This document shows, one piece after another, positions 1 to 20,089 of a stretch of 35,165 nucleotides of DNA. Under the pieces are notes generated by a model that did not search any database, was not told the origin of the DNA, and worked only from the letters and a program-made list of their open reading frames with translations. Location: the NCBI GenBank assembly GCA_013003245.1, contig JABDJX010000152.1, positions 1-35,165 of the forward strand, given 5' to 3'. The number at the start of each line of letters is the position of its first letter. Position 1 is the first letter of the stretch. A program made the translations under genes and the position numbers. The stretch is from Silicimonas sp. (GTDB lineage Bacteria; Pseudomonadota; Alphaproteobacteria; Rhodobacterales; Rhodobacteraceae).

Positions 1-221
1 CGCTTGTGGTGACGGGATGTACGACATCTGGCTGTGTGCGCTCTTCTGTGACGGACGCTTTCGCGCTGAATTTCAAGGTCATCGTTCCGGAGGATTGCGT
101 TTATGACCGCGCGCCGACCGCGCATGCCGTCAATCTGTGGGACATGAATGGCAAATATGCAGATGTCATGCCGTCCTCAGACGTGATTGCGACCTTGAAT
201 GAACTGGAGGCAGCCAAATGA
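1..221 (+). CDS. Isochorismatase-fold cysteine hydrolase (N-carbamoylsarcosine amidase-like), C-terminal part; gene starts before the window
   Basis: Frame 3 reads L-VVTGCTTSGCVRSSVTDAFALNFKVIVPEDCVYDR..., the nucleophilic-Cys region (TSGCVRSS) of the isochorismatase-like hydrolase family; stop at 219-221. Confidence 0.88.
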   Translation, partial: LVVTGCTTSGCVRSSVTDAFALNFKVIVPEDCVYDRAPTAHAVNLWDMNGKYADVMPSSDVIATLNELEAAK

Positions 222-1579
222 GTGCTGAAGATGTTGGTGCGGCCTTAGCCCAGTTGATCGCGTTCACCAGCACAATCGAGTGGCGCGATATTCCTGAGCC
301 CGTGCAAAAGCGCGCGGCACTCGTTTTGTGCGATGATATGGCTGCGATGGTTGCCGCACGTGGCGAACCCGAAGTGGTCTCGCTGCATGACGGTGTTGCG
401 AAATCGGCAGGTGCTGCGGAAGCAACTGTGTTCAATGCCCGCGCGCAAAGGTTGGATCGCTATTCAACAGCTCTTGCCAATGGCTGTGCGGGGGACTGGG
501 CAGAGCTTGACGAAGGGTATCGCCGGGTCATCTGCCATGCCGGCGTCTATTGTCTTCCGGCACTTCTGGCCGAGGCAGAGGCCGAAGGACACTCGGGCGC
601 GGATCTGTTGCGGGCATTGGTCATCGGCTATGAGACCGTGGCCCGCGTCGCGCGCGCCTTCACCTTTCCAAACCTTGTATTGCATCCGCACGGCAGCCTT
701 GCCGCTGTTGGGGCCGCGGCTGCCATCTGCGCTCTCAGGCGCGTACATGACGATGTGGCGATTGGCGCAATATCAAGCGCCGCCACCATGGTGCTGCCGG
801 GGCCGTACACGCATCCGATCCAAGGCTCGCTTGTGCGCAATGTCTGGCCGGGAGTTTCTGCGCAAACCGGATTGCGCGCAGTTGACTGGGCCGCACTTGG
901 CATCCTTGGCCTGCCCTCGGCGCTGCATGACGTTTACGCGGACGCCTTTGGGGCCTCGGCAGACGCCACGCAACTTAACGGTGGGCTTGGCGAGGCTTGG
1001 GCGATCTCAGACGGCTATCACAAGGTGTTCGCCTGCTGCCAATATGGCCATGCCACGATTGAGGCGACGAAAAAGCTATTGGAAAAAGCGCCTGTGAAGC
1101 GTGTAACGGCAATCCATCTCGATACCCACGAGAAAGCCCGGATCATGGATAACCCCGATCCGGACACAACGATTGCCGCCAAGTTCTCGATCCAGCACAT
1201 CGCAGCAACGGCTGCAGTACACGGGCATGGCGGGGCAGAGGCGTTTTCCTCGAATGCGTTGCACATCCCCGAAGTCGCGGCCTTGCGCCACAAAGTCACG
1301 ACCTCTCCTTTTGTGCCGCTGCCCGATTGGCCCAACGACCGCCCGACCCGGGTGACGTGGACGCTGAATGATGGCTCGACCTTAAGCGAAGAGGTGATGA
1401 GCGCGCGCGGCGGTCCTGATCTGCCTTTCACGCCGGACGAAATCCGCACCAAGGTCCATGGCATTGTCAGCGGCCCTTATCCGGCTATGAGCGGGGTCTT
1501 CGATGCGCTGCTTGATCTTGAAACATCAACACTCTCACGACCTTGGAACGAAACCGTGCGGGAAATGACCCGGGCATGA
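218..1579 (+). CDS. MmgE/PrpD family protein (2-methylcitrate dehydratase/isomerase-like)
   Basis: 453 aa ORF with PrpD-like features (GYETVARVARAF...HPHGSLAAVGAAAA, KVFACCQYGHATIEA, FSIQHIAATA); 4-nt ATGA overlap with the upstream gene. Confidence 0.85.
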   Translation: MSAEDVGAALAQLIAFTSTIEWRDIPEPVQKRAALVLCDDMAAMVAARGEPEVVSLHDGVAKSAGAAEATVFNARAQRLDRYSTALANGCAGDWAELDEGYRRVICHAGVYCLPALLAEAEAEGHSGADLLRALVIGYETVARVARAFTFPNLVLHPHGSLAAVGAAAAICALRRVHDDVAIGAISSAATMVLPGPYTHPIQGSLVRNVWPGVSAQTGLRAVDWAALGILGLPSALHDVYADAFGASADATQLNGGLGEAWAISDGYHKVFACCQYGHATIEATKKLLEKAPVKRVTAIHLDTHEKARIMDNPDPDTTIAAKFSIQHIAATAAVHGHGGAEAFSSNALHIPEVAALRHKVTTSPFVPLPDWPNDRPTRVTWTLNDGSTLSEEVMSARGGPDLPFTPDEIRTKVHGIVSGPYPAMSGVFDALLDLETSTLSRPWNETVREMTRA

Positions 1580-2931
1580 GCGACACACTTGACGTGCTGG
1601 TAATCGGCGCTGGGGCCTGTGGTTTGGCGGGGGCCATCGCGGCCCATGACGCAGGCGGAAATGTTGCCGTTCTGGAAGGGCGCGACAGGCCGGGGGGCAA
1701 CTCGGCGCTGTCTACGGGGTCGATCCCGGGGGCAGGGTCCAAGTACCAGCGAGCGGCAGGCATCGATGACAGCCCGGAGCGGATGGTCGACGACCTGATT
1801 AGTGTTGCCGGACATCACGATGCAGATGAGTTGACCTGGATGATCGCCTCGGAATGTGGCCCGCTCTGCGAATGGCTGATCGACGATCTGGGCGCGCGGA
1901 TGGAGCTGATCACCGCTTATCGCCACATTGGTCACTCGGTCGAGCGCCTGCATGCCCCGCGCTCCCGCCGTGGTCAGGATCTGGTGGACGACCTGCTGCG
2001 TTTCGTGGCAGAGCGCGACATTCCAATTGCGGTCGGCAACAAGGCTGACAGCTTGTTGGTCGAAAATAATCAGGTTGCCGGAGCCATTGTGGGCGGAGAG
2101 ACAATCCGCGCCCGCAAGGTGTTGTTGGCCACCAACGGCTTTGCCGCTGATCCGGCTATGGTCGCCGAATATTGTCCTGAAATAGCTCGGGCCGAGTATT
2201 TTGGTGCGCCTGGAAGCACAGGCGACGCGGTTCGCTGGGGACAAGCGCTGGGCGCGGCGTTGGGCAACATGGGCGCTTATCAGGGTTACGCGGCGGTGGC
2301 CTATCCGCAAGGGCAGCTGTTGTCGTGGACGACGCTTGAAAAGGGCGGTGTGCTGGTCAGCGAAACAGGGCTCCGGTTCGGGAACGAGGACCTGGGATAC
2401 TCCGGCTTTGCATCGCATGTGATGAAACAGGGCGCGTTTGCCTGGGCCATTTACGACGCGCGCATTCACAAGGTGGCCGAGGCGGAAGAGGAATACGCCG
2501 AGATGTCAGCGATGGGCGCCGTGACATGGGCCGAGGCCCCTGCGGAGTTGGGCGAAGCCGTAGGTGTTGATCCCGCCGGTTTGGAAGAAACCGTGGCCCG
2601 TTACAATGCAGCAGCATCGGGCGAGGGGCCGGACGCTTTCGGGCGCACGGCCTTTGCCATGGCACCGCTGAAGCCACCCTTTGCCGCCGTCAAGGTCAAG
2701 CCGGGCCTCTTTCACACGCAAGGCGGACTGATGGTCGACACATCCGCGCGGGTGCGTAAAGCAAGCGGCGGTGTGGTGCCTAATCTTTTCGCAGGCGGAG
2801 GGGCCGCCGTTGGCATCAGCGGACGCGACGGCGCGCTTGGCTATGCGTCCGGCAACGGGCTGATCACAGCGCTTGTACTGGGCCGCAAGGCGGGCATAGT
2901 CGCGATGGACGAGATCAAGGCAGAGCCATGA
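1576..2931 (+). CDS. FAD-dependent oxidoreductase (fumarate reductase/succinate dehydrogenase flavoprotein-like, FAD_binding_2)
   Basis: N-terminal Rossmann motif DVLVIGAGACGLAGAIAAHDAGGNVAVLEGRDRPGGNS; C-terminal GLFHTQGGLMVDTSARV...LFAGGGAAVGISG. ATG at 1576 overlaps the previous stop. Confidence 0.88.
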   Translation: MSDTLDVLVIGAGACGLAGAIAAHDAGGNVAVLEGRDRPGGNSALSTGSIPGAGSKYQRAAGIDDSPERMVDDLISVAGHHDADELTWMIASECGPLCEWLIDDLGARMELITAYRHIGHSVERLHAPRSRRGQDLVDDLLRFVAERDIPIAVGNKADSLLVENNQVAGAIVGGETIRARKVLLATNGFAADPAMVAEYCPEIARAEYFGAPGSTGDAVRWGQALGAALGNMGAYQGYAAVAYPQGQLLSWTTLEKGGVLVSETGLRFGNEDLGYSGFASHVMKQGAFAWAIYDARIHKVAEAEEEYAEMSAMGAVTWAEAPAELGEAVGVDPAGLEETVARYNAAASGEGPDAFGRTAFAMAPLKPPFAAVKVKPGLFHTQGGLMVDTSARVRKASGGVVPNLFAGGGAAVGISGRDGALGYASGNGLITALVLGRKAGIVAMDEIKAEP

Positions 2932-4268
2932 CGGGTGCCGAGCAGATCGCCGCCTTTGCCGCGCACACGTATCAAGACGGTGTTCCCAGCGATGTTTCAG
3001 ACGCCGCGCATCTGCATTTGCTGGATGCGATAGGCGTCGGCATTGCGGCCTCAAGCTTTGCGGAAAACGCAGGCTGGGCTGGGGCGGCCTCTGCGGGCAG
3101 CGCGACGCTTCTCAGCGGTGGTACTGCCGAGCCGGGGGCGGCTGCGATGATCAACGGCGCGTTGATCCATTCGCTGGAGTTCGACGACACCCACATCGCC
3201 TCAGTCGTGCATGGCAGCGCTGTTGCCGCATCGGTAGCCTTGGCCGCCACTGAACTTGTCGAGGGGTCAGGGCGCGACTTGATCCTGGCTTACGTCATCG
3301 CGTGGGAGGTCGCGATCCGCCTGGGACTGGCGGCTCCGGGCGCTTTTCAGACAAAGGGGTTTCAGGTGACCTCTGTTGGTGGCGCGATAGGGGCCGCAGC
3401 CGCCGCCGCGCAAGTGCTTGGGCTCGACCAACAACAGACCGTATCCGCCATCGGTATCGCAGGCGGGCAGGCGTCGGGGACGCTTGCGTTTCTGGCAGAC
3501 GGGGCGACATCAAAGGCCCTGAACCCCGGTTGGGCGGCGCGGACCGGGATTGAAGCGGCGCGTCTTGCACAGGCTGGCATGACCGGACCAGCGTCGGTTT
3601 TGGAAAGCACCTTTGGGGTTATGAACGTGTTTGCCGATGGCACAAAGGGGACGGAGCCGTTGCTTGCGACACTTGGCCGGGAGTGGATGACGCCTGACGC
3701 TGCCTTCAAGCTTTATCCCTGCTGTCACTACATTCACCCGTTTCTGGAAGCGGTTGAGAAGATAATGGCGCAGGGTGTTTCTGCAAATGATATCAACAGC
3801 GTGATGGCCTTGGTTCCACCGCCTGCGGCACCGCTTATCTGCGAGCCTTGGGCGCGCCGGCAAGCGCCCGTCTCGGGGTATGATGGCAAATGGGGGTTGG
3901 CCTATTGCATGGCGCTGATGCTGGTGGATGGCCGGGTTGACGTGGGCAGTTTCGAGGCCGCGCCGCGGGAAGACGTGATTGCGGTTGCGAAAAAGATGAC
4001 GTGGAAGCCGATGGAAGATCACAGATTTCCAGCGCGGTTTTCCGCGCGGATCGAGGTTGAGACGACAAATGGCGCGTTCAGCGCGGAGGTTCCGCAGGTG
4101 CGCGGCGCGCCGGACCGGCCTTTAGATGCAATGGACATCCGTGCCAAGTTCGTAGCGAACGCCGGGCGCAGGTTTGATGCAAAGCGCATTCACGCATTGG
4201 AGCAAGAGATACTTAGCATGGCATCGGCCGCCGATCTTGGGGGTATAGCGGGCTTGCTACAGGGATAA
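2928..4268 (+). CDS. MmgE/PrpD family protein
   Basis: 446 aa; LLDAIGVGIAASS, HSLEFDDTHIASVVHGSAVAASVALA, KLYPCCHYIHPFLEA; 4-nt overlap with the upstream gene. Confidence 0.88.
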   Translation: MTGAEQIAAFAAHTYQDGVPSDVSDAAHLHLLDAIGVGIAASSFAENAGWAGAASAGSATLLSGGTAEPGAAAMINGALIHSLEFDDTHIASVVHGSAVAASVALAATELVEGSGRDLILAYVIAWEVAIRLGLAAPGAFQTKGFQVTSVGGAIGAAAAAAQVLGLDQQQTVSAIGIAGGQASGTLAFLADGATSKALNPGWAARTGIEAARLAQAGMTGPASVLESTFGVMNVFADGTKGTEPLLATLGREWMTPDAAFKLYPCCHYIHPFLEAVEKIMAQGVSANDINSVMALVPPPAAPLICEPWARRQAPVSGYDGKWGLAYCMALMLVDGRVDVGSFEAAPREDVIAVAKKMTWKPMEDHRFPARFSARIEVETTNGAFSAEVPQVRGAPDRPLDAMDIRAKFVANAGRRFDAKRIHALEQEILSMASAADLGGIAGLLQG

Positions 4269-4284: not shown

Positions 4285-4668
4285 ATGGAAATTCAAAGAC
4301 ACATGGTTGAAGGGCAAATGGCACCCGTCAGTCACTATTGCCATTCGGTGCGCGCAGGTGAGTTGATCTGGGTCTCGGGCATTGTCGGCATGACGGCGGA
4401 CGGGTTCATCCCCGAAAACACGGTCGAGCAATTCGACATTGCACTGGACGCGATGGATGCGTGTCTGTGCGCAGCCGGTGGCACACCGGACACAGTGACC
4501 AAGGTGCAGGTCTTTCTGACGGACATCTCCGAGCGCGCATTGATCAACCCCGCCCGGGAAGCTTACTTTCGCGAACACCGACCCGCGTCAACACTTGTGG
4601 AAGTCTCAGCCCTTGTCGACCCGCGCATGAAGGTCGAGATCGAGTGCATGGGTATCGTCGCGACCTAA
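4285..4668 (+). CDS. RidA/YjgF/YER057c family protein (enamine/imine deaminase-like)
   Basis: 127 aa; VRAGELIWVSGIVG...GFIPENTVEQFDIALDAMDACL...TVTKVQVFLTD...PASTLVEVSALVDPRMKVEIECM. An AGGAAA purine tract precedes the ATG. Confidence 0.9.
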   Translation: MEIQRHMVEGQMAPVSHYCHSVRAGELIWVSGIVGMTADGFIPENTVEQFDIALDAMDACLCAAGGTPDTVTKVQVFLTDISERALINPAREAYFREHRPASTLVEVSALVDPRMKVEIECMGIVAT

Positions 4669-5975
4669 CCCATCAGGTTTGGCAGGAAGAGCACGATGGA
4701 TGGGAAGGCGATGAGCAGGCCAAGCGTGACAAGGTCCATCAGCAGGAAGGGTGTGACGCCTGCGAAAACCTCTTCCAGTCTGAGGGGAACGGGCGAGGCC
4801 GAGCGCACCACATAAACGTTCAACCCGACAGGTGGCGTGATCAGGCTGATCTCGGCCAGTTTTATCGCAATTACGCCCAGCCAGATCGGATCATAGCCGA
4901 CACTTGTCATGATTGGGAACATCACCGGCAGGGTCATGACCATAATCGCAATCGGGTCGATCAGCATGCCAAGGATGAGGTAGAGCACAGCGAAGCCCAT
5001 CAGGTAGGCAATCGGCGACAGCTCTAGTGCCAGCATCCAGTCCGATATGTCTCCGACAAGGCCGGTGTAGGTCAAAAAACGCGCGAAGATGATGCCGCCA
5101 ATGACGATGATGAAAATCGTTGATGTGGTGATGCCCGCGTCCTTGAACGTATCGACTAGCAATTTGATGTTCAGCTTGCGTTTGGCGGCGACGATCATGA
5201 ATGCCCCAAAGGCACCGACAGCTCCGGCATAGGTCGGCACAAAAAAGCCCAGGTAGATGCCGCCGATGACCAGTATAAACAAAAACGAGATGCCCCAGAC
5301 GCCCTTGAGCGACTCCCATTTCTCGCGCCGCGTTATCGTCACGTCGGGGATCGGGGCGAGGTCGGGACGAGCTTTCGCAACCAGATAGATGCCAAGCATA
5401 TAAATCCCGGCTGACATCAGACCCGGTATCAGACCAGCTACAAGCAGCCGGGCGACGGATTGCTCGGTAATCACCGCGTAGATGATCATCAGGATCGATG
5501 GAGGGATGAGCGATGCCAGCGTGCCCGATGCAGCGATGCAGCCCGCTGACAAACGTTTGTCGTACCCGAACTTCGTCATCTCGGGCATGGCCATTTTGGT
5601 GAACACGGCCGCATTGACGATTGTTGAGCCACAGGCAGCCCCAAAAGCCGCCGAGGCCAAAGTCGTCGCCATAGCCAAACCGCCCGAAAGTTTGCCCAGC
5701 CAGTTGTAGGCGGCGCGGTAAAGGTCGGTCGTCAGCCCCGCTTGCGTGGCAAGCGAGCCCATCAGGATAAACAGCGGGATCACGGCCAATGTGAAAGAAT
5801 TGGTCGTCGAGAACGGCACTGTTGCGACCTGCGCAAAGGCAGCGCGATCGCTGATCGTGATGAAAATGCCAAGGAACCCGCTTAGGCCCAGGGCAACGCC
5901 GATATGCGTACCCGTGGTCAGAAGGAAAAAAAGGAGGCAAGCAACGATGATGCCTGCAGTGGCCGGATCGAACAT
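4665..5975 (-). CDS. dctM: TRAP transporter large permease (DctM-like)
   Basis: 436 aa multi-TM protein; TRAP large-permease motifs (SGTLASLIPPSILMIIYAVITEQSVARLLVAGLIPG; LITPPVGLNVYVV). Confidence 0.93.
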   Translation of the reverse strand: MFDPATAGIIVACLLFFLLTTGTHIGVALGLSGFLGIFITISDRAAFAQVATVPFSTTNSFTLAVIPLFILMGSLATQAGLTTDLYRAAYNWLGKLSGGLAMATTLASAAFGAACGSTIVNAAVFTKMAMPEMTKFGYDKRLSAGCIAASGTLASLIPPSILMIIYAVITEQSVARLLVAGLIPGLMSAGIYMLGIYLVAKARPDLAPIPDVTITRREKWESLKGVWGISFLFILVIGGIYLGFFVPTYAGAVGAFGAFMIVAAKRKLNIKLLVDTFKDAGITTSTIFIIVIGGIIFARFLTYTGLVGDISDWMLALELSPIAYLMGFAVLYLILGMLIDPIAIMVMTLPVMFPIMTSVGYDPIWLGVIAIKLAEISLITPPVGLNVYVVRSASPVPLRLEEVFAGVTPFLLMDLVTLGLLIAFPSIVLFLPNLMG

Positions 5976-5981
5976 GTGCGG

Positions 5982-6521
5982 CTACTCGGCTTTCTGAAGG
6001 ATGTTGAGGGGATCGTTTTCCAGACCTTCACCGCTTTTGATGCGGATCACATCTTCGATCAGGTGCAGAAGCAGTTGAACGATCATTAATGCGCAGCCTG
6101 CCGCAAGGATAAAACGCGCAGGCCATAGCGGGAAGCGAATCAGTCCAACGGTGGCCTCGCCGATCTGCAGGGAATACTGCGCCTCGTTGATCGCCTCTGA
6201 CAGGATCAGACCAAAGAAAGTGATCGCGGCCAAATCGGTGATCACATCCATCATGGCACGGATGCGCGGCGGCATCTGGAAGTATACCAGTTCGACCCGG
6301 ATGTGCGCCCGTCTGATCTGTGCGTAGGCGAGTGCGCCAAAGACGATCAGAACCATGGTGCTTTCTGTCAATTCGCGCGGGCCGGGGACAGGGATCAGCA
6401 AAACCTGCGTTCCGATCACGTCTGCAACACCAAGAAACATCGAAAACAGCATCCCAACGCCGCCGATCAACAGGACGACCAGCGCTAGACGTTCGACAAT
6501 TCGGGAGATCTGTTTCACCAA
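5982..6521 (-). CDS. dctQ: TRAP transporter small permease (DctQ-like)
   Basis: 179 aa, four predicted TM segments; ADVIGTQ...ELTESTMVLIVFGALAYAQIRRAHIRVELV; lies between dctP and dctM. Confidence 0.9.
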   Translation of the reverse strand: MVKQISRIVERLALVVLLIGGVGMLFSMFLGVADVIGTQVLLIPVPGPRELTESTMVLIVFGALAYAQIRRAHIRVELVYFQMPPRIRAMMDVITDLAAITFFGLILSEAINEAQYSLQIGEATVGLIRFPLWPARFILAAGCALMIVQLLLHLIEDVIRIKSGEGLENDPLNILQKAE

Positions 6522-6578: not shown

Positions 6579-7589
6579 TTAATTAGCGTCGATAATTGCG
6601 CGCCAGTAGGTGGCGACTTCGCTCGCCTGATCACCCATACCGCGTGAGGTCATGTCCTCGACCCAATTTTGCAACAGGTCAGGAGCAGCCTCTTTCCACT
6701 TGGCCAGCTCTTCGGCTGGGAACGGCTTGATGGTGCCGCCTGCCTCGACGATCTTCTCGCCAGCCGCTTCCTCGGCCGCCTCGATATTGTCGATATAGAC
6801 CTGACCAGCTTTGGTGGCTTCTTCCTGAATGATCGCCTGATCATCAGCCGAGATGTCATTCCAGACGTCTTCGTTGATCACGATCAGGTGGCCGGTGATG
6901 GCCATCACCGGACCACAGCTGAAAGGGCCGGGCTCGTAAAGCCGGTTCGACAGGATATTGCCGCGGTTGAGGAACGAGTAATCTAGTGCTCCGCTTTGCA
7001 GCGCCTCGTAGACCTCGCCAACACCCACCGAAACCGGCACGGCACCAACGGCTTCATGGGCTTTTGGAATGTCAGCTCCGAACGAGCGGATTTTCTTGCC
7101 CGAAAGGTTAGCAACGCTGTCGCAATTCTCGTCAGGTCCAGTCAGGTAGTAGCCGCCGAGCGGTTGGTGAAAGAGGAACTTTACCCCGAACTTTGAGAGT
7201 TCTTCCTGAAAGTATGGCAAGTCCTTATAAGCGGCTGCCGAGATTTCCATTGCCTGACGGGGGCTCTCGAAAACGAACGGGATCTGATACGCACGCCAGT
7301 ACAAAAGCTGGTCTGCATAATACCCCGGTACGACCGACGCCATGTCGATAGCGTTGCGTCCCGCAAGCGTCAGCACCTCGTTGCCGGCACCAAGGCCGCC
7401 TGCAAATGTGATCTCGACCGTCACGCGCCCTTCGGTGCGCTCGGTCACGGCTTCGGCAAAGTCTTTTTCAGCCTGCAAAAAGGCACTGTCGCCAAGATAG
7501 TGGCCCCAACGAAGGGTCACTTCCTGTGCACTTGCAGCGCCTGCGGCAAGTACCGCGGCTCCGACGATGCTGGTAAAACGGTTAAACAT
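6579..7589 (-). CDS. dctP: TRAP transporter solute-binding protein (DctP family)
   Basis: 336 aa with Sec signal peptide (AAVLAAGAASA-QEVTLRWGHYL); DctP core FAGGLGAGNEVL, GKKIRSFGADIPKAHEAVGAVPVSVGVGEVYEALQSGALDYS. Confidence 0.93.
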   Translation of the reverse strand: MFNRFTSIVGAAVLAAGAASAQEVTLRWGHYLGDSAFLQAEKDFAEAVTERTEGRVTVEITFAGGLGAGNEVLTLAGRNAIDMASVVPGYYADQLLYWRAYQIPFVFESPRQAMEISAAAYKDLPYFQEELSKFGVKFLFHQPLGGYYLTGPDENCDSVANLSGKKIRSFGADIPKAHEAVGAVPVSVGVGEVYEALQSGALDYSFLNRGNILSNRLYEPGPFSCGPVMAITGHLIVINEDVWNDISADDQAIIQEEATKAGQVYIDNIEAAEEAAGEKIVEAGGTIKPFPAEELAKWKEAAPDLLQNWVEDMTSRGMGDQASEVATYWRAIIDAN

Positions 7590-7763
7590 AGACGTCTCCC
7601 TAGTTATCCGCCGCCCGTTTCGGACAGTCGGTTTGTTATCTTGGTAACCTGATCGTCGCGGTGAGCAAGCGTGTTGTTATTCCATGAAGCCGGAACGCAT
7701 TTACTGCGCCTTAAGCCCACAGTTACACGCGTTCCAGTTGGAATTTCCCCTCGCATCCAATCG

Positions 7764-7776
7764 GTCAACTGTTGAC
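7764..7776. promoter_or_regulatory. Candidate operator: perfect inverted repeat GTCAAC-T-GTTGAC
   Basis: Perfect 6-bp arms with 1-nt spacer; overlaps TTGACA (7772-7777, consensus -35); a third half-site GTCAAC lies at 7802-7807. Sits in the divergent region between dctP and the nitroreductase-methyltransferase gene. Confidence 0.45.
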
Positions 7777-7836
7777 AGTTTTGCGAAGCTGACGAAGACT
7801 TGTCAACGACGGCGTTTTTTCCAAGGGGATTTGAGG

Positions 7837-9204
7837 GTGAGCAGATTGCGACCAGAAGCCGAAGCGGCGCAATCGCAAACGTCCACGGATGAGGCGCGTT
7901 TCATTCTTGATAAGCTGGCACTGCGTGCGTCCTGCCGCGACTTCGACGGCAGTGAGATTGCGCCTGAAATTCTGGAAGACATCGTGCGCGATGGTGTGGA
8001 GGCACCTTCGTCGTGCAATCAGCAAAACTGGCATTTCATCATCGTTGCAGATACCGCTCGAAAGCAGCGTGCGCGTGAGATTTCAGGGGGAAATCACCAC
8101 TTTTCGGAATGCTCGGCGCTGATTTATCTGTGCTTTCAGAAGGGGTGGACGCACGGCAACTTCTCAATCGTGCAGTCGGTTGCGGGGGCCTGCTATCACA
8201 TGATGCTGTCATCCCACCTGCGTGGGTTTCAGTGTATCTGGAACGCAGGCATCGGTGACACAGATGCCTTGCGTGATATGTTCGCTTTGCCTCCAACTTT
8301 CGATGTGATCGGTGCGCTGGCAATTGGTCGCGCAAAAGGCACTGCGCCTAAAATGAAGGCACCGCGCAGACCCGTGGACGAGGTTTTTTCCTGGGAACGG
8401 TTCGAACGACCCGAGGCAAGTCTCTATCCCGTTAAACAGGCAGAGGCTTATCCGTTCTGGGAGATCAGGAACGACAGCAATCCATTTGCCCAGTGGAACC
8501 CACGGGCTTGGAGTTGGGACCAGATTGCCGACTTCCGTGGATATTCCGTATGGGCCAAATCGCCCTTGGCCGGTGTTTATGTCTCGCGCAGGCAAGGCAA
8601 CGCACAGGAGGCGGAACATGCCTTGTTGCCAGAATTGCCGGCGGGCGCGCGGGTGGCCGAGATCATGCCTTGGGGGGGAACCTCGACCAATGCTTTGCTG
8701 ACGAGGCTGGGCGATGTTCATGTGTCCGTCGCAGAATTGTCGGTGAACAACTTAAGCTTCATCAAAGAGCGCTTGCTCCGCGAAGGCCGCGATCTGGAGC
8801 GCGTCACATTTGACCTTATGGCGGGCGGCAAGCTGCCATATCGGGATGAAAGCCTTGATCTTGTGGTCCTTCCGCAAACGTTGGAGCACATGCCGAACCC
8901 CGAAAGCGTTTTGGACGAGGTGAGGCGCGTTCTTTCTCCGGCAGGTGCGGTCGTGGCCAGCGTGCGCAACGCACACTCGGCTTACGGTGCAAATTGGCGC
9001 GATCATGAAACGCTTGCTCAAGTGCCGAACCAGGGGCCATTCACTCCTTTGGCTGCGAAAGATGTGGCCAATTGGTTTGCTGCACGGTTTAAGATCGAGG
9101 ACGAAGTCGGAATTGGCGCTGAGGCAACAGGTGATGCAGCAATCCTGACGGGTGATCAGCGCCATTCAGGGCGTCTTTACGCCTTGCGAGGACGTCGTGC
9201 TTAA
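7837..9204 (+). CDS. Nitroreductase domain fused to class I SAM-dependent methyltransferase-like domain
   Basis: N-terminal half: LRASCRDFDGSEIAPEILEDIVRDGVEAPSSCNQQNWHFIIV (nitroreductase). C-terminal half: FDLMAGGKLPYRDESLDLVVLPQTLEHMPNPESVLDEVRRVLSPAGAVVASVRN (methyltransferase motif II onward). GTG at 7837 follows AAGGGG at spacing of about 8. The ORF is open from ATG 7684, which is the alternative start. Confidence 0.82.
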   Translation: MSRLRPEAEAAQSQTSTDEARFILDKLALRASCRDFDGSEIAPEILEDIVRDGVEAPSSCNQQNWHFIIVADTARKQRAREISGGNHHFSECSALIYLCFQKGWTHGNFSIVQSVAGACYHMMLSSHLRGFQCIWNAGIGDTDALRDMFALPPTFDVIGALAIGRAKGTAPKMKAPRRPVDEVFSWERFERPEASLYPVKQAEAYPFWEIRNDSNPFAQWNPRAWSWDQIADFRGYSVWAKSPLAGVYVSRRQGNAQEAEHALLPELPAGARVAEIMPWGGTSTNALLTRLGDVHVSVAELSVNNLSFIKERLLREGRDLERVTFDLMAGGKLPYRDESLDLVVLPQTLEHMPNPESVLDEVRRVLSPAGAVVASVRNAHSAYGANWRDHETLAQVPNQGPFTPLAAKDVANWFAARFKIEDEVGIGAEATGDAAILTGDQRHSGRLYALRGRRA

Positions 9205-9211
9205 CCGCGCA

Positions 9212-10594
9212 TCATCGCAATTCGCGGGCGACGAAACGTCCGCCGCCAATCGCATTGTCCTGCAGTGCACCATCGCGCAAAGCAAACCGACCACGCGACA
9301 AAGTGTGCACGACACGGGCGCTCATACTTTCGCCTTCATAAATCGAATACCCGGCGTCCGTACCAAGATCATCCTTGCCGACAACCCAGTCGGCGTTGAG
9401 ATCCACAACCGCAATGTCCGCATCCAGTCCAGGCCGCAGAGTTCCCTTTGCATTCAGCCCCATGCGCCGGGCCGGGTTCTCGCTCGCCAGCGGGATCAGC
9501 GTATCAAGCGGCACGCCATGGCGCTGTCCATACGTCAAAAGAACCGGAAGAAAGGCATCCAGCCCCGGAAATCCCGGTTGAGCTTTCCAGATGCCCCCGT
9601 CTTTGCAGGCGATCGGGCGGTGAATGTGATCCGTGGCAATCGTGTTGATATCTCCACGTTTTATCCCAGCCCAAAGCGCCTCCCGGTCCTCGGGTGCGCG
9701 CAGCGGCGGATTGACCTTGCCAATCTCGGCGATGGCGCTGGTCGTATCGTGGGTCAGATAGTGCAGGCAGGTCTCGATACAGACGTCGGATCCGGCAGCG
9801 CGCTGCCGCAGGGCGGCATCCAGCGCCTCTCCAGACGAGGTGTGCACGGCGTGGACAGGTGTTCCGGTAATCCGCGCAAAGTATGTAGCACGCGACAGGG
9901 CGTCAGCCTCAACGAAGGGCGGGCGCGTGTCGTTCCAGGTGGCCAAGCCGCCTGTGCCCTCGGGATCGGCGGCGGTAACACGGTCGCGCAGAACCCAGGC
10001 CACTTCGATGTTTTCAGGGTGCGGGCAGAGAAGACCGTTGTTTTCTGCCAGAACTCCCAAAAGCCGGAAGAGAAAGCCGTCGTCCGTGCCCGGAAGCCCA
10101 AGTCGCGCCCCTTCGTCGCCGCGGATGTTCATGAAGAGTTTGGCACTGGGCGCGCCACGTTTGATCAACGCGGGCAGTTCGGCAAGCTGGTCTTCGGTGG
10201 CGATGACAAAGTGAAATCCGAAATCAATCCGGGCACCTGCTTGAGTGGTTTCGCAAAGCTCGGCGAAAACGGGCGTGTAGGGGTCGGGGCTCATCACGTA
10301 GGAAATAAACGTCGTGACCCCGCCTTTGGCCGCGGCACCCGTCTCGGATGTGGCATCTTGCGGCACGCGGGGTCGGGCAATGTCCATGCCGTGGCCCAAG
10401 TGGATATGCGCATCCACGACACCGGGCAAAACGGTCAGGCCGGTGATGGCCTCGTCCTGTGCCGCATCACCACCGCCCGGCACCTCGATCGACGCTATCG
10501 TGCCATCGCTGATCAGAATATCGCAGTCCGTCAGGCCCACATCCGGCAAGAGCGCTGCGCCACCCCGAAGGGCAAGGTCTGCTTGTTGGGCCAT
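9212..10594 (-). CDS. Dihydroorotase/dihydropyrimidinase-family amidohydrolase (hydantoinase-like)
   Basis: GVVDAHIHLGHG (HxH), SAKLFMN (carbamylated Lys region), HAVHTSSGEAL, ATDHIHRPIACKDG. ATG start at 10594 (MAQQADLALRGGAALL) preferred over the ORF-track start at 10645. Confidence 0.87.
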   Translation of the reverse strand: MAQQADLALRGGAALLPDVGLTDCDILISDGTIASIEVPGGGDAAQDEAITGLTVLPGVVDAHIHLGHGMDIARPRVPQDATSETGAAAKGGVTTFISYVMSPDPYTPVFAELCETTQAGARIDFGFHFVIATEDQLAELPALIKRGAPSAKLFMNIRGDEGARLGLPGTDDGFLFRLLGVLAENNGLLCPHPENIEVAWVLRDRVTAADPEGTGGLATWNDTRPPFVEADALSRATYFARITGTPVHAVHTSSGEALDAALRQRAAGSDVCIETCLHYLTHDTTSAIAEIGKVNPPLRAPEDREALWAGIKRGDINTIATDHIHRPIACKDGGIWKAQPGFPGLDAFLPVLLTYGQRHGVPLDTLIPLASENPARRMGLNAKGTLRPGLDADIAVVDLNADWVVGKDDLGTDAGYSIYEGESMSARVVHTLSRGRFALRDGALQDNAIGGGRFVARELR

Positions 10595-10623
10595 GGTCCG
10601 TCTCCTGTGCTGGTGCGCACACA

Positions 10624-11502
10624 ATGACCTTGGAGCGCGTGCCATATCAACCCATCACCAACAGGCCGCGTCTGACGTGGCCCAATGGCGCGCGCGTGGC
10701 CGTTTGGGTCGTGCCCAATGTCGAGCACTATGAATACCTGCCGCCTGAAAACGGTGGACGTGATCCTTGGCCGCGCACTTCGCACCCCGATGTGTTGGGC
10801 TATGGGCTGCGCGACTTCGGCAATCGTGTCGGACTTTGGCGCATGGCAAAGGTGACGGATGATTTAGGCATCCCGCTCACGTTGTCGCTCAATCTGGCGA
10901 ATTGGTTGCACTATCCCGAGATATTCGAGGCGTCAGAGGCGCGCGGCTGGGACGTGATGGCCCACGGGCTTTACAACACGCGCTATCACTGGGGTATGTC
11001 CAAAGAGGCCGAGCGCGCCGCAATTGGCGAATGCGTCGAGATTTATCGTGAACTGACGGGGCGCATGTTGCGGGGTTGGTTTTCGCCTGCCGCGACGTGG
11101 ACTGAGAACACCCCTGATCTCGTGGCCGAGGCGGGGATCAGCTATTACTGCGACTGGTATCACGACGATCAGCCGACGCGGATGAACGTGCGCGAGGGTC
11201 AATTGATCACGCTGCCCTATCAGATGGACATCAACGACGCGATGGTCTGGCGACACCACTTCGAGGCAGATGACTTCGCGCAGATGGTGATCGATCATTT
11301 CGACACGCTGTGGCGCGAAGGTGCGGATCAGGGCCGCGTCGTTTGCATTGCATTGCATCCCTACATCATGGGGCAACCGCACCGCATTCGGGCATTGGAA
11401 CGCGCGCTGCGTCATGTGGTGGAGCATGATCAGATCTGGTTGGCGACCGGGGCCGAGATTGCGGACTGGTACCTGTCAGATCAGTGGAGGCAGGCCGCAT
11501 GA
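10624..11502 (+). CDS. Polysaccharide deacetylase-fold hydrolase (PuuE allantoinase / cyclic-imide hydrolase-like)
   Basis: 292 aa; RLTWPNGARVAVWVVPNVEHYEY...VMAHGLYNTRYHWGM...GWFSPAATWTENTPDLVAEAGISYYCDWYHDDQPTRM...CIALHPYIMGQPHRI. Confidence 0.87.
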   Translation: MTLERVPYQPITNRPRLTWPNGARVAVWVVPNVEHYEYLPPENGGRDPWPRTSHPDVLGYGLRDFGNRVGLWRMAKVTDDLGIPLTLSLNLANWLHYPEIFEASEARGWDVMAHGLYNTRYHWGMSKEAERAAIGECVEIYRELTGRMLRGWFSPAATWTENTPDLVAEAGISYYCDWYHDDQPTRMNVREGQLITLPYQMDINDAMVWRHHFEADDFAQMVIDHFDTLWREGADQGRVVCIALHPYIMGQPHRIRALERALRHVVEHDQIWLATGAEIADWYLSDQWRQAA

Positions 11503-12404
11503 GCATTGCCGCTGGCATGGACCACGACCTTTATCCCTATCGCGGCGTGCCGGGACGGGCTGCAATCGAATGGCCGGGTGGGGCGAAGGTGGCTTTTGCG
11601 CCTGTGGTCTACCTTGAGCATTGGCCCTATGAGGCGACGCCTGGCGGTTACGCGGATCCTAGGTTCCGGGATCCCTATGGCGCGTTTCAGCCAGACTACC
11701 GAGGCCACACATGGCGTGAATACGGCAATCGTATCGGGATATTCCGGCTGTTCGAAGTTCTGGATCGTTTTGGCCTGACGGCGACGCTGGCGGCCAATGC
11801 GTCGGCAGCAAAACGGTATCCGGTGATCATTGACGAGGCGCTGCGCCGTGGTTGGGAGATTGCCGCCCATGGTGACGTCGCTGATGCGATGGTGACGTCT
11901 GAGATGTCTGCTGATCAGGAAGCCGACTTGATCGCGCTGTGTCTCGCCAGCTTGGAAGGCGACACTGGCGCTCGCCCCAAAGGTTGGATCGCGCAGGATT
12001 TTGGCGAAAGCACGCGCTCTGTCGACCTTTTGGCCAAAGCAGGCATCGAGTGGATCGCGCACTGGCCGAATGACGACCAACCTTATTGGATGGCCTCCGC
12101 ACCGCCGATTGTCTCAGTGCCGCAACTGTCCGAGTTGGATGACGCCGAGTGTCTGTGGCACCGCCGCGTGCCCACACCACGATGGCCGGGAATGCTGGAA
12201 GAGGCGATCAGCGTCATGGCGGGCGAGAGTGGCCGCGTGGCCGTCATCGGCATCCATCCATGGATATTCGGGATGCCGCACCGGATCCGCTACCTCGGGG
12301 AAGGTCTGCGCCGGGTCGCGGAAATCGACGGTGTCTGGTCTACATGCGTTGGACAGATCGCGGCGCACTACAGATCGAAACAAGCAGCGGAGGGTGCGCT
12401 GTGA
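11499..12404 (+). CDS. Polysaccharide deacetylase-fold hydrolase, second tandem copy
   Basis: Same architecture as the previous ORF: AIEWPGGAKVAFAPVVYLEHWPYE, WEIAAHGDVADAM, IEWIAHWPNDDQPYWM, VIGIHPWIFGMPHRIRYL. ATG at 11499 in a 4-nt overlap. Confidence 0.87.
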   Translation: MSIAAGMDHDLYPYRGVPGRAAIEWPGGAKVAFAPVVYLEHWPYEATPGGYADPRFRDPYGAFQPDYRGHTWREYGNRIGIFRLFEVLDRFGLTATLAANASAAKRYPVIIDEALRRGWEIAAHGDVADAMVTSEMSADQEADLIALCLASLEGDTGARPKGWIAQDFGESTRSVDLLAKAGIEWIAHWPNDDQPYWMASAPPIVSVPQLSELDDAECLWHRRVPTPRWPGMLEEAISVMAGESGRVAVIGIHPWIFGMPHRIRYLGEGLRRVAEIDGVWSTCVGQIAAHYRSKQAAEGAL

Positions 12405-13093
12405 GCGGGTCAGACGGATCAGAACGCCTTGTGGCACAGAACCTCTCTGGCCTTGCGCTGGAACGCCTTGAACGCGCCATTCTGGAAGGTGAGCTTGGAC
12501 CCGGTGAGCGGCTGAGCGAAAGCGGTCTGGCGCGCAGGTTCGGGATTTCTCGCGGGCCTTTGCGTGAAGCCATCGGGCAACTGGAGGGTCGCAAGCTGGT
12601 GACCCGCGTCTCTAATCAGGGTGCGCGGGTTGTGTCTTTGTCCAAAGATGACCTTATGGACCTTTTGCAAGTCCGAGAAAGCCTTGAGGGTATGGCTTGT
12701 CGGTTGGCCTGTGGAAACATGACCGAGGCGGGTCTTGCGCGGTTGGATGACATGTTGAGCGCGCATGAAAAGACCGATGCCATGCAAACTGGACGCGGTT
12801 ATTTCCAGAGTGCTGGCGATGGTGATTTTCATCAGGTCATTCTGGCAGCCTGCGGCAACGCGCGGCTGACCGGGATGCTGGGCGATGAACTCTATTCGCT
12901 GTTGCGGCTTTATCGACATCGTTTGTCGATGCGCCCCGGGCGCCCGGCAGAGGCGCTTGAGGAGCACAGGCAGATAGTGGCAGCTCTGCGCGCCCGCGAT
13001 CCCGATGCCGCCGAAGCAGCGATGCGCGCGCATTTGCGCAACAGCCGTTCCGCGCTGGATACCTGGGTTACAGATGAGGAATTTCGTCAATGA
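12401..13093 (+). CDS. GntR family transcriptional regulator (FadR/FCD subfamily)
   Basis: LERAILEGELGPGERLSESGLARRFGISRGPLREAIGQLEGRKLVTRVSNQGARVV winged HTH, then an FCD-like domain. GTG start at 12401 overlaps the preceding TGA. Confidence 0.88.
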   Translation: MSGSDGSERLVAQNLSGLALERLERAILEGELGPGERLSESGLARRFGISRGPLREAIGQLEGRKLVTRVSNQGARVVSLSKDDLMDLLQVRESLEGMACRLACGNMTEAGLARLDDMLSAHEKTDAMQTGRGYFQSAGDGDFHQVILAACGNARLTGMLGDELYSLLRLYRHRLSMRPGRPAEALEEHRQIVAALRARDPDAAEAAMRAHLRNSRSALDTWVTDEEFRQ

Positions 13094-13971
13094 CAGGGAC
13101 CCTTGCCGACCGCCGCAAAGATTTCCGCATTCGAATGGAGCGCCGCGATGCGATGATCCTTCCCGGTGCCGGCAACGCTCTGACGGCACGCGTGATTGCC
13201 GATCAGGGTTTTGATGCGGTTTACATCACTGGCGCGGGAATTTCGAACACGCTTCTTGGCGTTCCCGACATCGGATTGGTAACATTGAGCGAGCTTGCAG
13301 GGACTGTCTCGGCCATTGCTGAAATCACCGATCTGCCTTTGGTCGTTGATATCGACACCGGGTTTGGCAATGCGATTAACGCGCACCGCACCGTGCGCAT
13401 GATCGAGCGCGCAGGCGCCACCGCCATGCAAATGGAAGATCAGGTTTTTCCCAAGAAATGCGGACACTTCGCGGGCAAAGCTGTTATTCCACTTGAAGAA
13501 GCCGTGTCAAAGGTCAAAGCCGCTGTTGACGCCCGCGAAGACGCCAATACACTGATCATTGCCCGCACCGATGTCCGCGCCATCCATGGGTTGGATGCCG
13601 CGTTGGACCGCGCCGAAGCCTTTATTGAAGCAGGTGCCGACATGACGTTCGTTGAAGCACCCGCATCGATTGAGGAAATGCAGGCCATCACCGGACAGCT
13701 CTCTGTTCCCCAAGTCGCCAACATGGTGGTCGGGGGCAAAACGCCCTTGTTGCCGCAGGTGGAATTGGCACGGTTGGGGTTCTCGCTGGTGCTTTATGCC
13801 AACACGCCGTTGCAAGCCGCCATGCGCGCGATGAGCGATGTTCTGAGTGCTTTGAAAGAGGACGGAGATGTCAGTGGCGTGATCGACAAACTCGCCGATT
13901 TCAAAGAGCGCCAACGCCTTGTCGACAAGGATAACTATGACGCACTTGAAGCGCGTTATTCTGTGGATTGA
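13090..13971 (+). CDS. Isocitrate lyase/PEP mutase superfamily carboxy-lyase (2-methylisocitrate or 2,3-dimethylmalate lyase-like)
   Basis: 293 aa; LPGAGNALTARVIADQGFDAVYITGAG, PLVVDIDTGFGNA, MEDQVFPKKCGHFAGK (catalytic-Cys KKCGH motif), ANMVVGGKTPLL. Confidence 0.9.
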   Translation: MTGTLADRRKDFRIRMERRDAMILPGAGNALTARVIADQGFDAVYITGAGISNTLLGVPDIGLVTLSELAGTVSAIAEITDLPLVVDIDTGFGNAINAHRTVRMIERAGATAMQMEDQVFPKKCGHFAGKAVIPLEEAVSKVKAAVDAREDANTLIIARTDVRAIHGLDAALDRAEAFIEAGADMTFVEAPASIEEMQAITGQLSVPQVANMVVGGKTPLLPQVELARLGFSLVLYANTPLQAAMRAMSDVLSALKEDGDVSGVIDKLADFKERQRLVDKDNYDALEARYSVD

Positions 13972-17023: not shown

Positions 17024-18358
17024 TCAGCGGGGCGCGTTGGCCATTTCGGTCATAAGCGGGTCAAGGGACTGGGCAGTTGCAACGTCCATCCCCATATCCC
17101 AAACGCGCTTTGCGGCGTCTTCACGCCAAAGGCGCGTTGTCAGTGACAGGTATTTCCTGCGGATTTCCTCTGGCGGGTAAGGATCAGACCAGTCGCCCCG
17201 GTTGGTTTCGGTTTCAGCTTCAAGAACCTCGCCGGTTTTCAGTGTGACGATGATACGAGCCGGGCGCTTGTCGGGCAGCAGCGCTGTCATGCTTGGGTCT
17301 TCTGTCACGCTCACACGGCGCGCCAGATCGAGGATGTCAGGGTTGGTGACATTTGGCATGGTGAAGCTATCGACGCCGGTTGAGCCATTCAACAGCGATG
17401 TCGCCACCGCAAAGGGGACTGAAAATTTGCCTGCCAAAACATTCACAGGCGCAGGGTCGTCCAGTTCGACGGCAAGGGAATAGGTTTCAACCTGCACGCT
17501 TTCGATGTGGTGGTGATCCAGCCCCTTGGCCTGCAAACTGGCCAACGCATCAAGCGCCGCGTGGTTATAGCGACAGCAGGAGTGCATCTTGAAATAGTTG
17601 CGGTTGACCTCCCAACGTCCCCCCAGATCTCTGGCAAAGGTGGCATCGTCAAAGCTGTCCGACACAACGTGCCCAAACACCTGAGCCACGCCGTCATGAT
17701 CCCCGGTATAGCCCGATGCGATCATGTCGCCGGCCAGCACCCCCATCTGTCCCGACACGCCCGCAAAGACGTTTCGCACTGTGCCGCCTTCCAGCATCGT
17801 ACGGCGCGAAGTCGATAATCCAAGGCTTGCCGACAGGCTGATCGCGTGGCGCATCTGTGCGGCGTCGGCCCCTTTCAGGCGTGCCACGGCAGTTGCCGCG
17901 CAGATCGCGCCCCATGTGCCGTGTGGATGCATCGACGGGCGCAATTGCGTGGAAATCCCGACACGCGCTCCGACCTCGTAGCCAATCGCGACAGCGGCCA
18001 GCAAGTCCGCGCCGCTGGTCTGGGCTTGCGCAGCCGCCAAAGCAGCGGGCACCGTGTGCATACCGGGGTGGCCTTTGCAAAACTGATTGCCTTCATCCAT
18101 CTCAAGGGTTGTGCCAGCCGTGCCGTTCAAAAGGGCCGCAGTGCCAGCGGCGCGCGTTTGCGTCGTGCCAATCAATAGGGCCGGGCCGCTGCCGGATTGG
18201 CGACGGGCCAGGGCGGCAACATCGGGTTCGGCAGCGCCACCCACGATCGCCCCAATGCAATCGGCCAGGATCAGGGCAGTGCGTGCGCTGACGTCCGGCG
18301 GAAGATCCGACGTTGGCGTTTCAGCGGCAAAACGCGCCACGTGCCCTAAACTGTCCAT
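17024..18358 (-). CDS. MmgE/PrpD family protein
   Basis: LADCIGAIVGGAAEPDVAAL, AIGYEVGARVGISTQLRPSMHPHGTWGAICAATAVARL, NYFKMHSCCRYNHAALDAL. ATG at 18358 (MDSLGHVARF) chosen over the ORF-track start at 18442, which would cover the whole divergent spacer. Confidence 0.86.
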   Translation of the reverse strand: MDSLGHVARFAAETPTSDLPPDVSARTALILADCIGAIVGGAAEPDVAALARRQSGSGPALLIGTTQTRAAGTAALLNGTAGTTLEMDEGNQFCKGHPGMHTVPAALAAAQAQTSGADLLAAVAIGYEVGARVGISTQLRPSMHPHGTWGAICAATAVARLKGADAAQMRHAISLSASLGLSTSRRTMLEGGTVRNVFAGVSGQMGVLAGDMIASGYTGDHDGVAQVFGHVVSDSFDDATFARDLGGRWEVNRNYFKMHSCCRYNHAALDALASLQAKGLDHHHIESVQVETYSLAVELDDPAPVNVLAGKFSVPFAVATSLLNGSTGVDSFTMPNVTNPDILDLARRVSVTEDPSMTALLPDKRPARIIVTLKTGEVLEAETETNRGDWSDPYPPEEIRRKYLSLTTRLWREDAAKRVWDMGMDVATAQSLDPLMTEMANAPR

Positions 18359-18440
18359 CCCTTGCCCCGCACCCGATTTCCTGATTGCCTGCCAAATTAG
18401 GCGTGTATCGAACGCCCCTGCAAGCAGTTTGGAGAGTGTC

Positions 18441-19208
18441 ATGAAGCGGGTACTGGTGATCGTCCCTTTTCCGATGAGCGAAGATAACCGCGATCAGCGC
18501 CGGGCTCAGCTGGGATCGGTCGAACTTGGGCCAGACATCGAGTTTGTCTTTGAGTCCGTCCGCGTGGCTCCAAAGAACTATGTCAGCGCGTCCGACATGG
18601 CTTTGGCCGAATTCGGCGCGTTGGAGGCGGGGCTGAAGGCCGAAGAGCGCGGCTTTGATGCGGTGTGCATCGACACGATGTCCGACAGCGGCATGGCAGG
18701 CTTGCGCTCGGAATTAACCATCCCTGTGATCGGGCCGGGCCGTGCGTCAGTGCTTATGGCGATGATGCTGGGAAACCGGTTCTAGATCATCGCGATGTGG
18801 CCGCATTGGCAACATCTCTATCGCAAGACGATCGGCGAACTTGGGGTCGAGAAGCACTGCGCCTCGGTTCGTTGGATCGATGCGACGCCCGACAATCAGG
18901 CGCTGATGGCAGGCAAAGAGAGTGACATCTTTCCTGCACTGGAAGCCATTGCGCGCCGTTGCATTGAAGAAGATGGCGCGGATGTGATTCTGTTGGGCTC
19001 CACCACGATGCACCAATCACATGCCTATCTTGCCGAGCGCCTTTCGGTCCCTGTCGTCAATCCCGGACCGCTGACCTACAAGCTGGCAGAAACCGTGCTG
19101 GGCCTTGGTTTGACCCACAGCCGTGCTGCCTATCCAACAACGCTTGCCCCGCGCCGGGATGTCATTCACGCGATGCTGGACGCAGCTGAGGCGCATGATC
19201 AATCATAA
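18441..19208 (+). pseudogene. Asp/Glu/hydantoin racemase family gene interrupted by an in-frame TAG (18783-18785)
   Basis: 18441-18785 encodes MKRVLVIVPFPMSEDNRDQ...DTMSDSGMAGLRSELTIPVIGPGRASVLMAMMLGNRF*. The same frame continues after TAG as IIAMWPHWQHLYRKTIGELGVEKHCASVRWID...VILLGSTTMHQSHAYLAERLSVPVVNPGPLTYKLAETVLGLGLTHSRAAYP to TAA 19206-19208. Both halves belong to one racemase family. Confidence 0.82.
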
Positions 19209-19276: not shown

Positions 19277-20089
19277 ATGACCAAAATCGACCGCGCCTTG
19301 TCGAATGTACCCTCGCGGCTGGATGCCGCCTCTGCGGTGCCGCTTTATCAGCAATTGGTCGTGCAATTGGAAAACCGGATTGCCAGCGGTGAGTTTGGGC
19401 CGGGTAGCGTGCTGCCGGGCGAATTTGATCTCTCGCGTGGCTATGGCGTCTCGCGCATCACCGCAAAACGGGCGCTGGATGAACTGGCAGATGCCGGTCT
19501 GGTCAAACGCGAACGCGGGCGTGGCACGAAGGTTTTGAAACGTCCGAAAGCAGCGGCAATGCGGACCTCAATCGACGGTTGGCTCGACACCATTAGCCTG
19601 ATGCAATCCACCACGGACGTGCGGCTCTTGCAGTTAGACTACCTCTCGGCGACCCCCGATATCGCAGCGGCGCTTGAGGTGCCTCAGGGCACAGAAGTGC
19701 AGCGCTCGGTGCGGGTGCGCACGCTGGAAGGGACGCCGATGTCCTATCTTGTTTGCTTTCTGCCCGGTGCCATTGGTCACGGTTTTGATGAGGATGATTT
19801 ACGTAAAACAGCCATGCTGAAGCTGCTTGAACGTGCAGGCCATACCGTTGCCTTGGCGCGCCAGACCGTGTCGGCCACCCTCGCCACCCCCGAGACAGCG
19901 CAGGCGCTGGACTTGCTGGCAGGCGCACCATTGCTGGAAGTGCGCCGCATTGCGCGCGATGCCGATAACGTGGCGGTGCAGTACATCCGTGCCCTTTATT
20001 CCCCCGAGCTTTACCACATTGAAATGGCGATGACGCGCAAGGTCGGGCCTGATGGGCCGCTTTGGTCGGCTGAGGAGGATCCAAGCTGA
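19277..20089 (+). CDS. GntR family transcriptional regulator (HutC/UTRA subfamily)
   Basis: SAVPLYQQLVVQLENRIASGEFGPGSVLPGEFDLSRGYGVSRITAKRALDELADAGLVKRERGRGTKV, then a UTRA-like domain (TEVQRSVRVRTLEGTPMSYLVCFLP...VQYIRALYSPELYHIEM). ATG 19277 preferred to 19232, which lies inside the palindrome. Confidence 0.9.
   Translation: MTKIDRALSNVPSRLDAASAVPLYQQLVVQLENRIASGEFGPGSVLPGEFDLSRGYGVSRITAKRALDELADAGLVKRERGRGTKVLKRPKAAAMRTSIDGWLDTISLMQSTTDVRLLQLDYLSATPDIAAALEVPQGTEVQRSVRVRTLEGTPMSYLVCFLPGAIGHGFDEDDLRKTAMLKLLERAGHTVALARQTVSATLATPETAQALDLLAGAPLLEVRRIARDADNVAVQYIRALYSPELYHIEMAMTRKVGPDGPLWSAEEDPS

Follow-up and report, generated by a model that had tools for sequence, protein, structure and literature searches.

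The locus described here raises the question of what a nitroreductase may be doing in one chain with a methyltransferase-like domain. The gene lies in a stretch of 35,165 nucleotides from Silicimonas sp. (contig JABDJX010000152.1), called hereafter the window. An earlier note on this DNA had pointed out the two domains in one open reading frame, with an aromatic-rich linker between them. It had envisaged an enzyme able to reduce and then methylate a pathway metabolite, or to modify a peptide, a cofactor or a thiol. The gene and its elements are the following.

7764 to 7776, no strand: palindromic operator GTCAACTGTTGAC in the dctP/fusion intergenic region, with exact copies in the same place at most loci
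7823 to 7829, plus strand: Shine-Dalgarno-like AAGGGGA, read in the sequence, 8-14 bases upstream of GTG 7837
7837 to 9204, plus strand: nitroreductase-methyltransferase fusion gene, 455 residues, a single open frame with 36 homologous loci
7894 to 8406, plus strand: FMN nitroreductase-family domain, residues 20-190 (PF00881, profile matches, AlphaFold2 model and Foldseek)
8407 to 8631, plus strand: conserved cap or linker, residues 191-265, with NPFAxWxPxxWSW..ADFRGYSVWAKSPLAGVYVSRRQG (conservation in 35 homologues)
8632 to 9201, plus strand: class I methyltransferase-fold domain, residues 266-455 (PF08241, AlphaFold2, Foldseek)
8659 to 8682, plus strand: remodelled SAM motif I, E-I-M-P-W-G-G-T, residues 275-282 (alignment of 35 homologues)

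From the GTG at 7837 to position 9204, the frame contains no internal stop. Pfam recognizes in it both Nitroreductase (PF00881, 53.4 bits for a cut-off of 23.5) and Methyltransf_11 (PF08241, 47.4 bits for a cut-off of 21.2), in agreement with the two domains first noticed. The whole protein is modelled by AlphaFold2 with a mean pLDDT of 88 and a pTM of 0.84. The open frame counted from the first ATG would extend from 7684 to 9204. This ATG was rejected as a start because it would place the conserved operator inside the gene. GTG 7837 is preferred in view of the position of that operator, of the Shine-Dalgarno-like sequence upstream and of the homologous ORFs, which begin near the equivalent position.

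The N-terminal domain is of the FMN nitroreductase type, as had been proposed. It carries RASCRDF, APSSCNQQNWHF and a C-terminal IGR...PRRP segment, and the FMN-contact motifs are kept: S32, R34, F36, P57, S58, N61 and W65, among others, are invariant and align with the motifs of 3ge5 and 4qlx. Profile matches are 3ge5, 4dn2, 4g8s, 4qlx and 9exv. Among these, 4qlx is CLA-ER, a nitroreductase-family enone reductase in which profile comparison reveals a very similar APSxCNxQxWHF motif. The fusion is very likely to be an FMN oxidoreductase. As to the type of reaction, the top Foldseek matches include 4dn2, 3ge5, iodotyrosine deiodinase (IYD) and AlbA/cyclodipeptide oxidase, the last two with TMt values of 0.81-0.86; the structural matches to this fold are generic, at about 20% identity. 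The best scorer among the 25 best NCBIfam matches is BluB, the 5,6-dimethylbenzimidazole synthase (TIGR02476), which reaches 32.3 bits for a cut-off of 150. The nitroreductase match does not tell whether the enzyme is of the enone reductase, deiodinase, BluB or cyclodipeptide oxidase type.

The linker rich in aromatic residues is real. Of its 75 positions, 21 are invariant in 35 homologues, and the mean frequency of the majority residue is 0.76, versus 0.77 for the nitroreductase domain. Being as conserved as this domain, it is to be seen as a functional cap rather than as a spacer. Judging from this conservation, it is probably part of the active site or a lid.

The C-terminal half adopts the Rossmann-like fold of class I methyltransferases. 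Modelled alone, it reaches a pLDDT of 90 and a pTM of 0.90. Its nearest Foldseek neighbours are MitM, Hvo_0019, SpnF and AtmM, with E-values of 1e-12 to the first three. The core after strand 2 fits the Methyltransf_11 family well, and the acidic residue that follows strand 2 in class I enzymes is present (E300, E or D in 35/35). The SAM loop is another matter. In an alignment with MitM, 3mgg and RebM, the canonical GCGxG corresponds to MPWGG in the fusion, and nearly all of the 35 homologues have [E/D]x[M/L]PWGGT in place of [D/E]xGxGxG. Either M or L occupies position 277, P is found at position 278 in 33 of the 35, and W279, G281 and T282 are invariant. The canonical glycines at D+2 and D+4 have given way to M/L and W in every homologue, and the pattern [D/E]x[G/A]xGxG is lost. 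As a control, this pattern is kept by all 14 other Methyltransf_11 proteins that the genome encodes. Among the 15, the Pfam match starts after motif I in the fusion alone. The region normally in contact with adenine (about 328-330) is variable. Invariant residues of the domain are W279, Q347, E350, R377, N378, P397 and Q399-G400-P401. Because the unusual residues are themselves invariant, the domain looks repurposed, not decayed. From these alignments, the fusion would probably make no canonical use of SAM, and the idea of an enzyme that reduces and then methylates loses its footing, since no homologue has kept the normal SAM-binding loop.

A truly bifunctional enzyme may still be imagined, in which the nitroreductase domain would reduce a compound and the C-terminal domain would methylate the product with SAM, thanks to an unusual motif I. 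Altered motifs I do occur in some true methyltransferases. The confidently predicted class I fold, the real SAM enzymes among its nearest structures (MitM, AtmM, METTL6), the acidic residue at position 300 and the well-fitting core would all suit such a mechanism, but the loss of the first two glycines of GxGxG in 35/35 homologues, in a genome where 14/14 paralogues are canonical, and the variable adenine-contact region speak against it, and it is hard to see what methylation would contribute to a catabolic operon. We regard this possibility as doubtful.

The catabolic character of the operon appears from the neighbouring genes of the window.

1 to 221, plus strand: 3′ end of a RutB/biuret-hydrolase-like isochorismatase, its 5′ part being on contig C79
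218 to 1579, plus strand: MmgE/PrpD-family enzyme 1 (PF03972 and PF19305; PDB IDS-epimerase 2hp0)
1543 to 2931, plus strand: FAD_binding_2 flavoprotein, fumarate reductase/TcuA-like (PF00890; TIGR01813 below cut-off)
2928 to 4268, plus strand: MmgE/PrpD-family enzyme 2 (PF03972 and PF19305)
4285 to 4668, plus strand: RidA-family enamine/imine deaminase (PF01042)
4665 to 5975, minus strand: TRAP DctM (PF06808)
5982 to 6521, minus strand: TRAP DctQ (PF04290)
6579 to 7589, minus strand: TRAP solute-binding protein DctP, divergent from the fusion (PF03480)
9212 to 10645, minus strand: allantoinase/hydantoinase-like amidohydrolase (Amidohydro_1; AllB model below cut-off)
10624 to 11502, plus strand: PuuE-like cyclic amide/imide hydrolase 1, of polysaccharide-deacetylase fold (TIGR03212 below cut-off; PDB 3cl6)
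11484 to 12404, plus strand: PuuE-like hydrolase 2 (TIGR03212 below cut-off)
12149 to 13093, plus strand: GntR/FCD regulator, maximal ORF (PF00392 and PF07729)
13090 to 13971, plus strand: PrpB/isocitrate-lyase-superfamily C-C lyase (TIGR02317 below cut-off; PF13714)

Most of these enzymes resemble known families without reaching the corresponding NCBIfam cut-offs. The amidohydrolase scores 243.7 bits with AllB (TIGR03178, cut-off 358), the two PuuE-like hydrolases 149 and 79.5 bits with PuuE allantoinase (TIGR03212, cut-off 425) and the lyase 294.5 bits with methylisocitrate lyase PrpB (TIGR02317, cut-off 354). PuuE-like hydrolase 1 matches the PuuE structure 3cl6 at 7e-33, and the PDB matches of the lyase include 2,3-dimethylmalate lyase (3fa3). 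The true start of the GntR/FCD gene is probably near 12390, since its homologues have about 235 residues. To the left, the cluster continues on contig C79 (positions 1-3887), the last 127 bases of which are positions 1-127 of the window. C79 carries an AtuA fragment, an isochorismatase, two SnoaL-like genes, a third PuuE-like gene and the RutB/biuret-hydrolase-like gene, families assigned there by likeness to genes searched at related loci. Such a hydrolytic and catabolic neighbourhood gives no reason to suppose that the fusion modifies a peptide, a cofactor or a thiol, or has a role in glycan metabolism.

The gene set is found again in relatives. In 26 loci with wide flanks, PuuE-like genes are present in 24, PrpD1 and FAD1 each in 23, TRAP and PrpB1 each in 22 and AllB-like genes in 21. 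In Microvirga, a branched-chain-type ABC importer replaces the TRAP genes, as at locus L028, and similar ORFs are recognized by eye at L027. Asparaginase- or amidase-like genes also occur in the clusters of relatives.

The earlier note had suggested that the fusion and the divergent TRAP operon are co-regulated, and this view is now strongly supported. The dctP gene is divergent from the fusion in 27 of the 27 loci having a dctP orthologue, and the operator is conserved across loci. The palindrome (GTCAACTGTTGAC / GTCAACNGTTGAC) is found in 32 copies in 37 loci; base composition predicts 0.03, and palindromes made by scrambling the letters give at most 2 copies each, and 0.04 on average. In this genome, the only exact copies are that at 7764-7776 and one on C79 (3256-3269), between divergent PuuE-like and RutB-like genes, at the second divergent promoter of the cluster. 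Further copies precede AtuA/DUF4387 genes in Thalassobaculum and its relatives, and the loci of Phyllobacteriaceae and Falsigemmobacter have, instead of the operator, a related palindrome, AACTGTTTACAGTT. The most evident candidate for binding the operator is the GntR/FCD protein encoded in the cluster. With high probability, the fusion belongs to the catabolic regulon of the cluster.

What would this regulon degrade? The combination of PuuE/AllB, RutB-like, RidA and PrpD/FAD/PrpB genes suggests that a cyclic imide or ureide is taken up and broken down; the PuuE family has cyclic imidases among its members, for example HxnM (PMC9304392). The cluster thus looks like an apparently undescribed catabolic regulon for a heterocycle of this type, the substrate class being deduced from enzymes most of which stay below the NCBIfam cut-offs of their families. 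That the substrate is of the imide type is a tentative proposal, with somewhat less than even chances. In the mechanism that we favour, the TRAP transporter, or the branched-chain-type ABC importer in Microvirga, would import a small cyclic imide- or ureide-type N-heterocycle. PuuE/AllB-type enzymes would open the ring, isochorismatase/amidase-type enzymes would remove nitrogen and RidA would deal with the enamine or imine. The PrpD, FAD_binding_2 and PrpB enzymes would then convert a branched di- or tricarboxylate into a 2-oxoacid and a short acid. The role of the fusion would be a flavin-dependent redox reaction, with the imported heterocycle or its first intermediate as substrate, for example the reduction of a conjugated C=C bond, as in CLA-ER. 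Instead of transferring a methyl group from SAM, the methyltransferase-like domain, together with the cap, would bind and orient the substrate or another ligand. To this reading, a flavin redox step in heterocycle catabolism with the methyltransferase-like domain as a ligand site and not a SAM site, we give a probability of about 0.5.

A bolder version of it would see a new type of flavoenzyme, in which the methyltransferase fold, its SAM loop being replaced, would provide a second site for a ligand beside the FMN site. The nutrient would be cyclic imide-like, possibly a tetrapyrrole-derived maleimide (hematinic acid), handled by an undescribed catabolic regulon. This version is speculative, at perhaps one chance in four. 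Literature searches on hematinic acid and bilins brought up no bacterial pathway like this cluster. A search for nitroreductase-methyltransferase fusions or for the cluster itself, which took in few subscription papers, returned nothing relevant.

A more modest role may also be considered, that of a housekeeping-like detoxifier that, like RutE in the Rut pathway, would reduce a semialdehyde, a quinone or a flavin, the C-terminal domain being a structural or regulatory pseudoenzyme. The Rut-like partners in the cluster (the RutB-like isochorismatase and the RidA/RutC-like protein) would be in keeping with it, as would a divergent promoter, which fits an accessory protein. However, the RutE model is absent from the 25 best NCBIfam matches, and the unusual invariant residues of the cap and of the methyltransferase-like domain exceed the needs of a passive scaffold, so that this role appears unlikely. 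Reductive dehalogenation in the manner of IYD, or dehydrogenation in the manner of cyclodipeptide oxidase, of an imported compound is brought to mind by the Foldseek matches mentioned above, but the low identity of these generic matches and a cluster devoid of halogen- or peptide-related genes make it very improbable.

Finally, a chance join of two genes can be dismissed, whether by assembly or by a frame error, the latter named in the earlier note among the findings that would overturn its reading, since 36 independent loci carry the same uninterrupted fusion.

The fusion is almost certainly a real and conserved gene. Tblastn finds its relatives at these 36 loci (L004-L039), with 52-77% identity over most or nearly all of the protein, in a scan with one genome per species. 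With few exceptions, the hosts are alphaproteobacterial: Paracoccaceae/Rhodobacterales, Thalassobaculaceae, Microvirga, Phyllobacteriaceae and Afifella. The exceptions are a contig of 3.3 kb assigned to Pseudomonadales (L029) and some MAGs that bear no finer label than Proteobacteria. The fusion is rare. In the family sample it occurs in 4 of 298 genomes besides that of the window, and the phylum sample (399 genomes) gave no further full-length fusion, its one partial match being a single-domain nitroreductase. In a class sample of 289 genomes, no stand-alone relative of the methyltransferase-like half was found at E <= 1e-15, and the nitroreductase half alone gave only distant single-domain proteins. 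No plasmid-borne relative was found. In the gene tree, the Paracoccaceae fusions are scattered among those of other families, which suggests horizontal spread.

Both halves of the fusion fall in known superfamilies. With PF00881 proteins (3ge5, 4dn2, 4qlx), it shares the fold, the RxSxRxF and PSxxNxQxW FMN motifs and the C-terminal phosphate-side segment; unlike them, it is joined to a cap and a methyltransferase-like domain and has its own GGNHHF and CFQKGWTHGNFS segments. With Methyltransf_11 enzymes (MitM, RebM, AtmM), it shares the fold, the strand order and the LPxxDxSxDxVVxxQxLEHxPDPExxLDExxRVLKPGG core, but its motif I is MPWGGT instead of GxGxG and it has a long N-terminal cap. SpnF (4pne), a [4+2] cyclase among the top Foldseek and profile matches, also puts a methyltransferase fold to another reaction. 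SpnF retains bound SAM/SAH with a normal motif I, whereas the SAM loop of the fusion is replaced. Thus, the protein is apparently a nitroreductase-family oxidoreductase with an appended, repurposed methyltransferase fold. As for the cluster, it shares with the Rut and allantoin/PuuE pathways RutB-like, RidA and PuuE/AllB-like hydrolases and a nitroreductase-family member. It differs from them in having no RutA/F or urate genes among the annotated genes, in members that remain below equivalog cut-offs, and in PrpD/PrpB/FAD_binding_2/AtuA genes, which indicate a branched-acid carbon skeleton.

If this reading is true, the fusion represents a new architecture among flavoenzymes, with a methyltransferase fold that no longer has the canonical SAM loop. 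It would also be the marker of an alphaproteobacterial N-heterocycle regulon with a wide, scattered distribution and a history of horizontal spread. Automatic annotation as nitroreductase plus methyltransferase would then mislead pathway reconstruction. The identity of the N-heterocycle is directly testable in cultured Thalassobaculum litoreum, Pseudooceanicola atlanticus and Microvirga vignae.

Other features were observed around these loci. Further right of the PrpB-like lyase, the window encodes a racemase, a D-hydantoinase (above its cut-off), a carbon-nitrogen hydrolase and a third PrpD. The Asp/Glu/hydantoin-racemase-family gene (18087-19208, plus strand) is apparently split in two ORFs, by a change of frame or a stop, with halves matching profile positions 28-111 and 120-207. 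It is intact in relatives (for instance L005 19321-20115, 264 aa) and is here either a recent pseudogene or an assembly error. A second block (20089-28487, plus strand) comprises genes for both aconitase subunits, large and small, another PrpB, hydantoinase A/B, an isochorismatase and a further FAD_binding_2; it is only partly common to L017, L024 and L039 and may handle a related substrate. At L015 (17453-18529), as well as at L025, L030, L031, L035 and L037, a TcuB-like 4Fe-4S protein adjoins a FAD_binding_2 flavoprotein near the fusion, as a tricarballylate-oxidation-like pair. In the Thalassobaculum group, AtuA (PF07287) followed by DUF4387 stands behind operator copies (L028 13205-14895, L012 15735-17123 and others), and this operator linkage offers a lead to the function of an unexplained pair.
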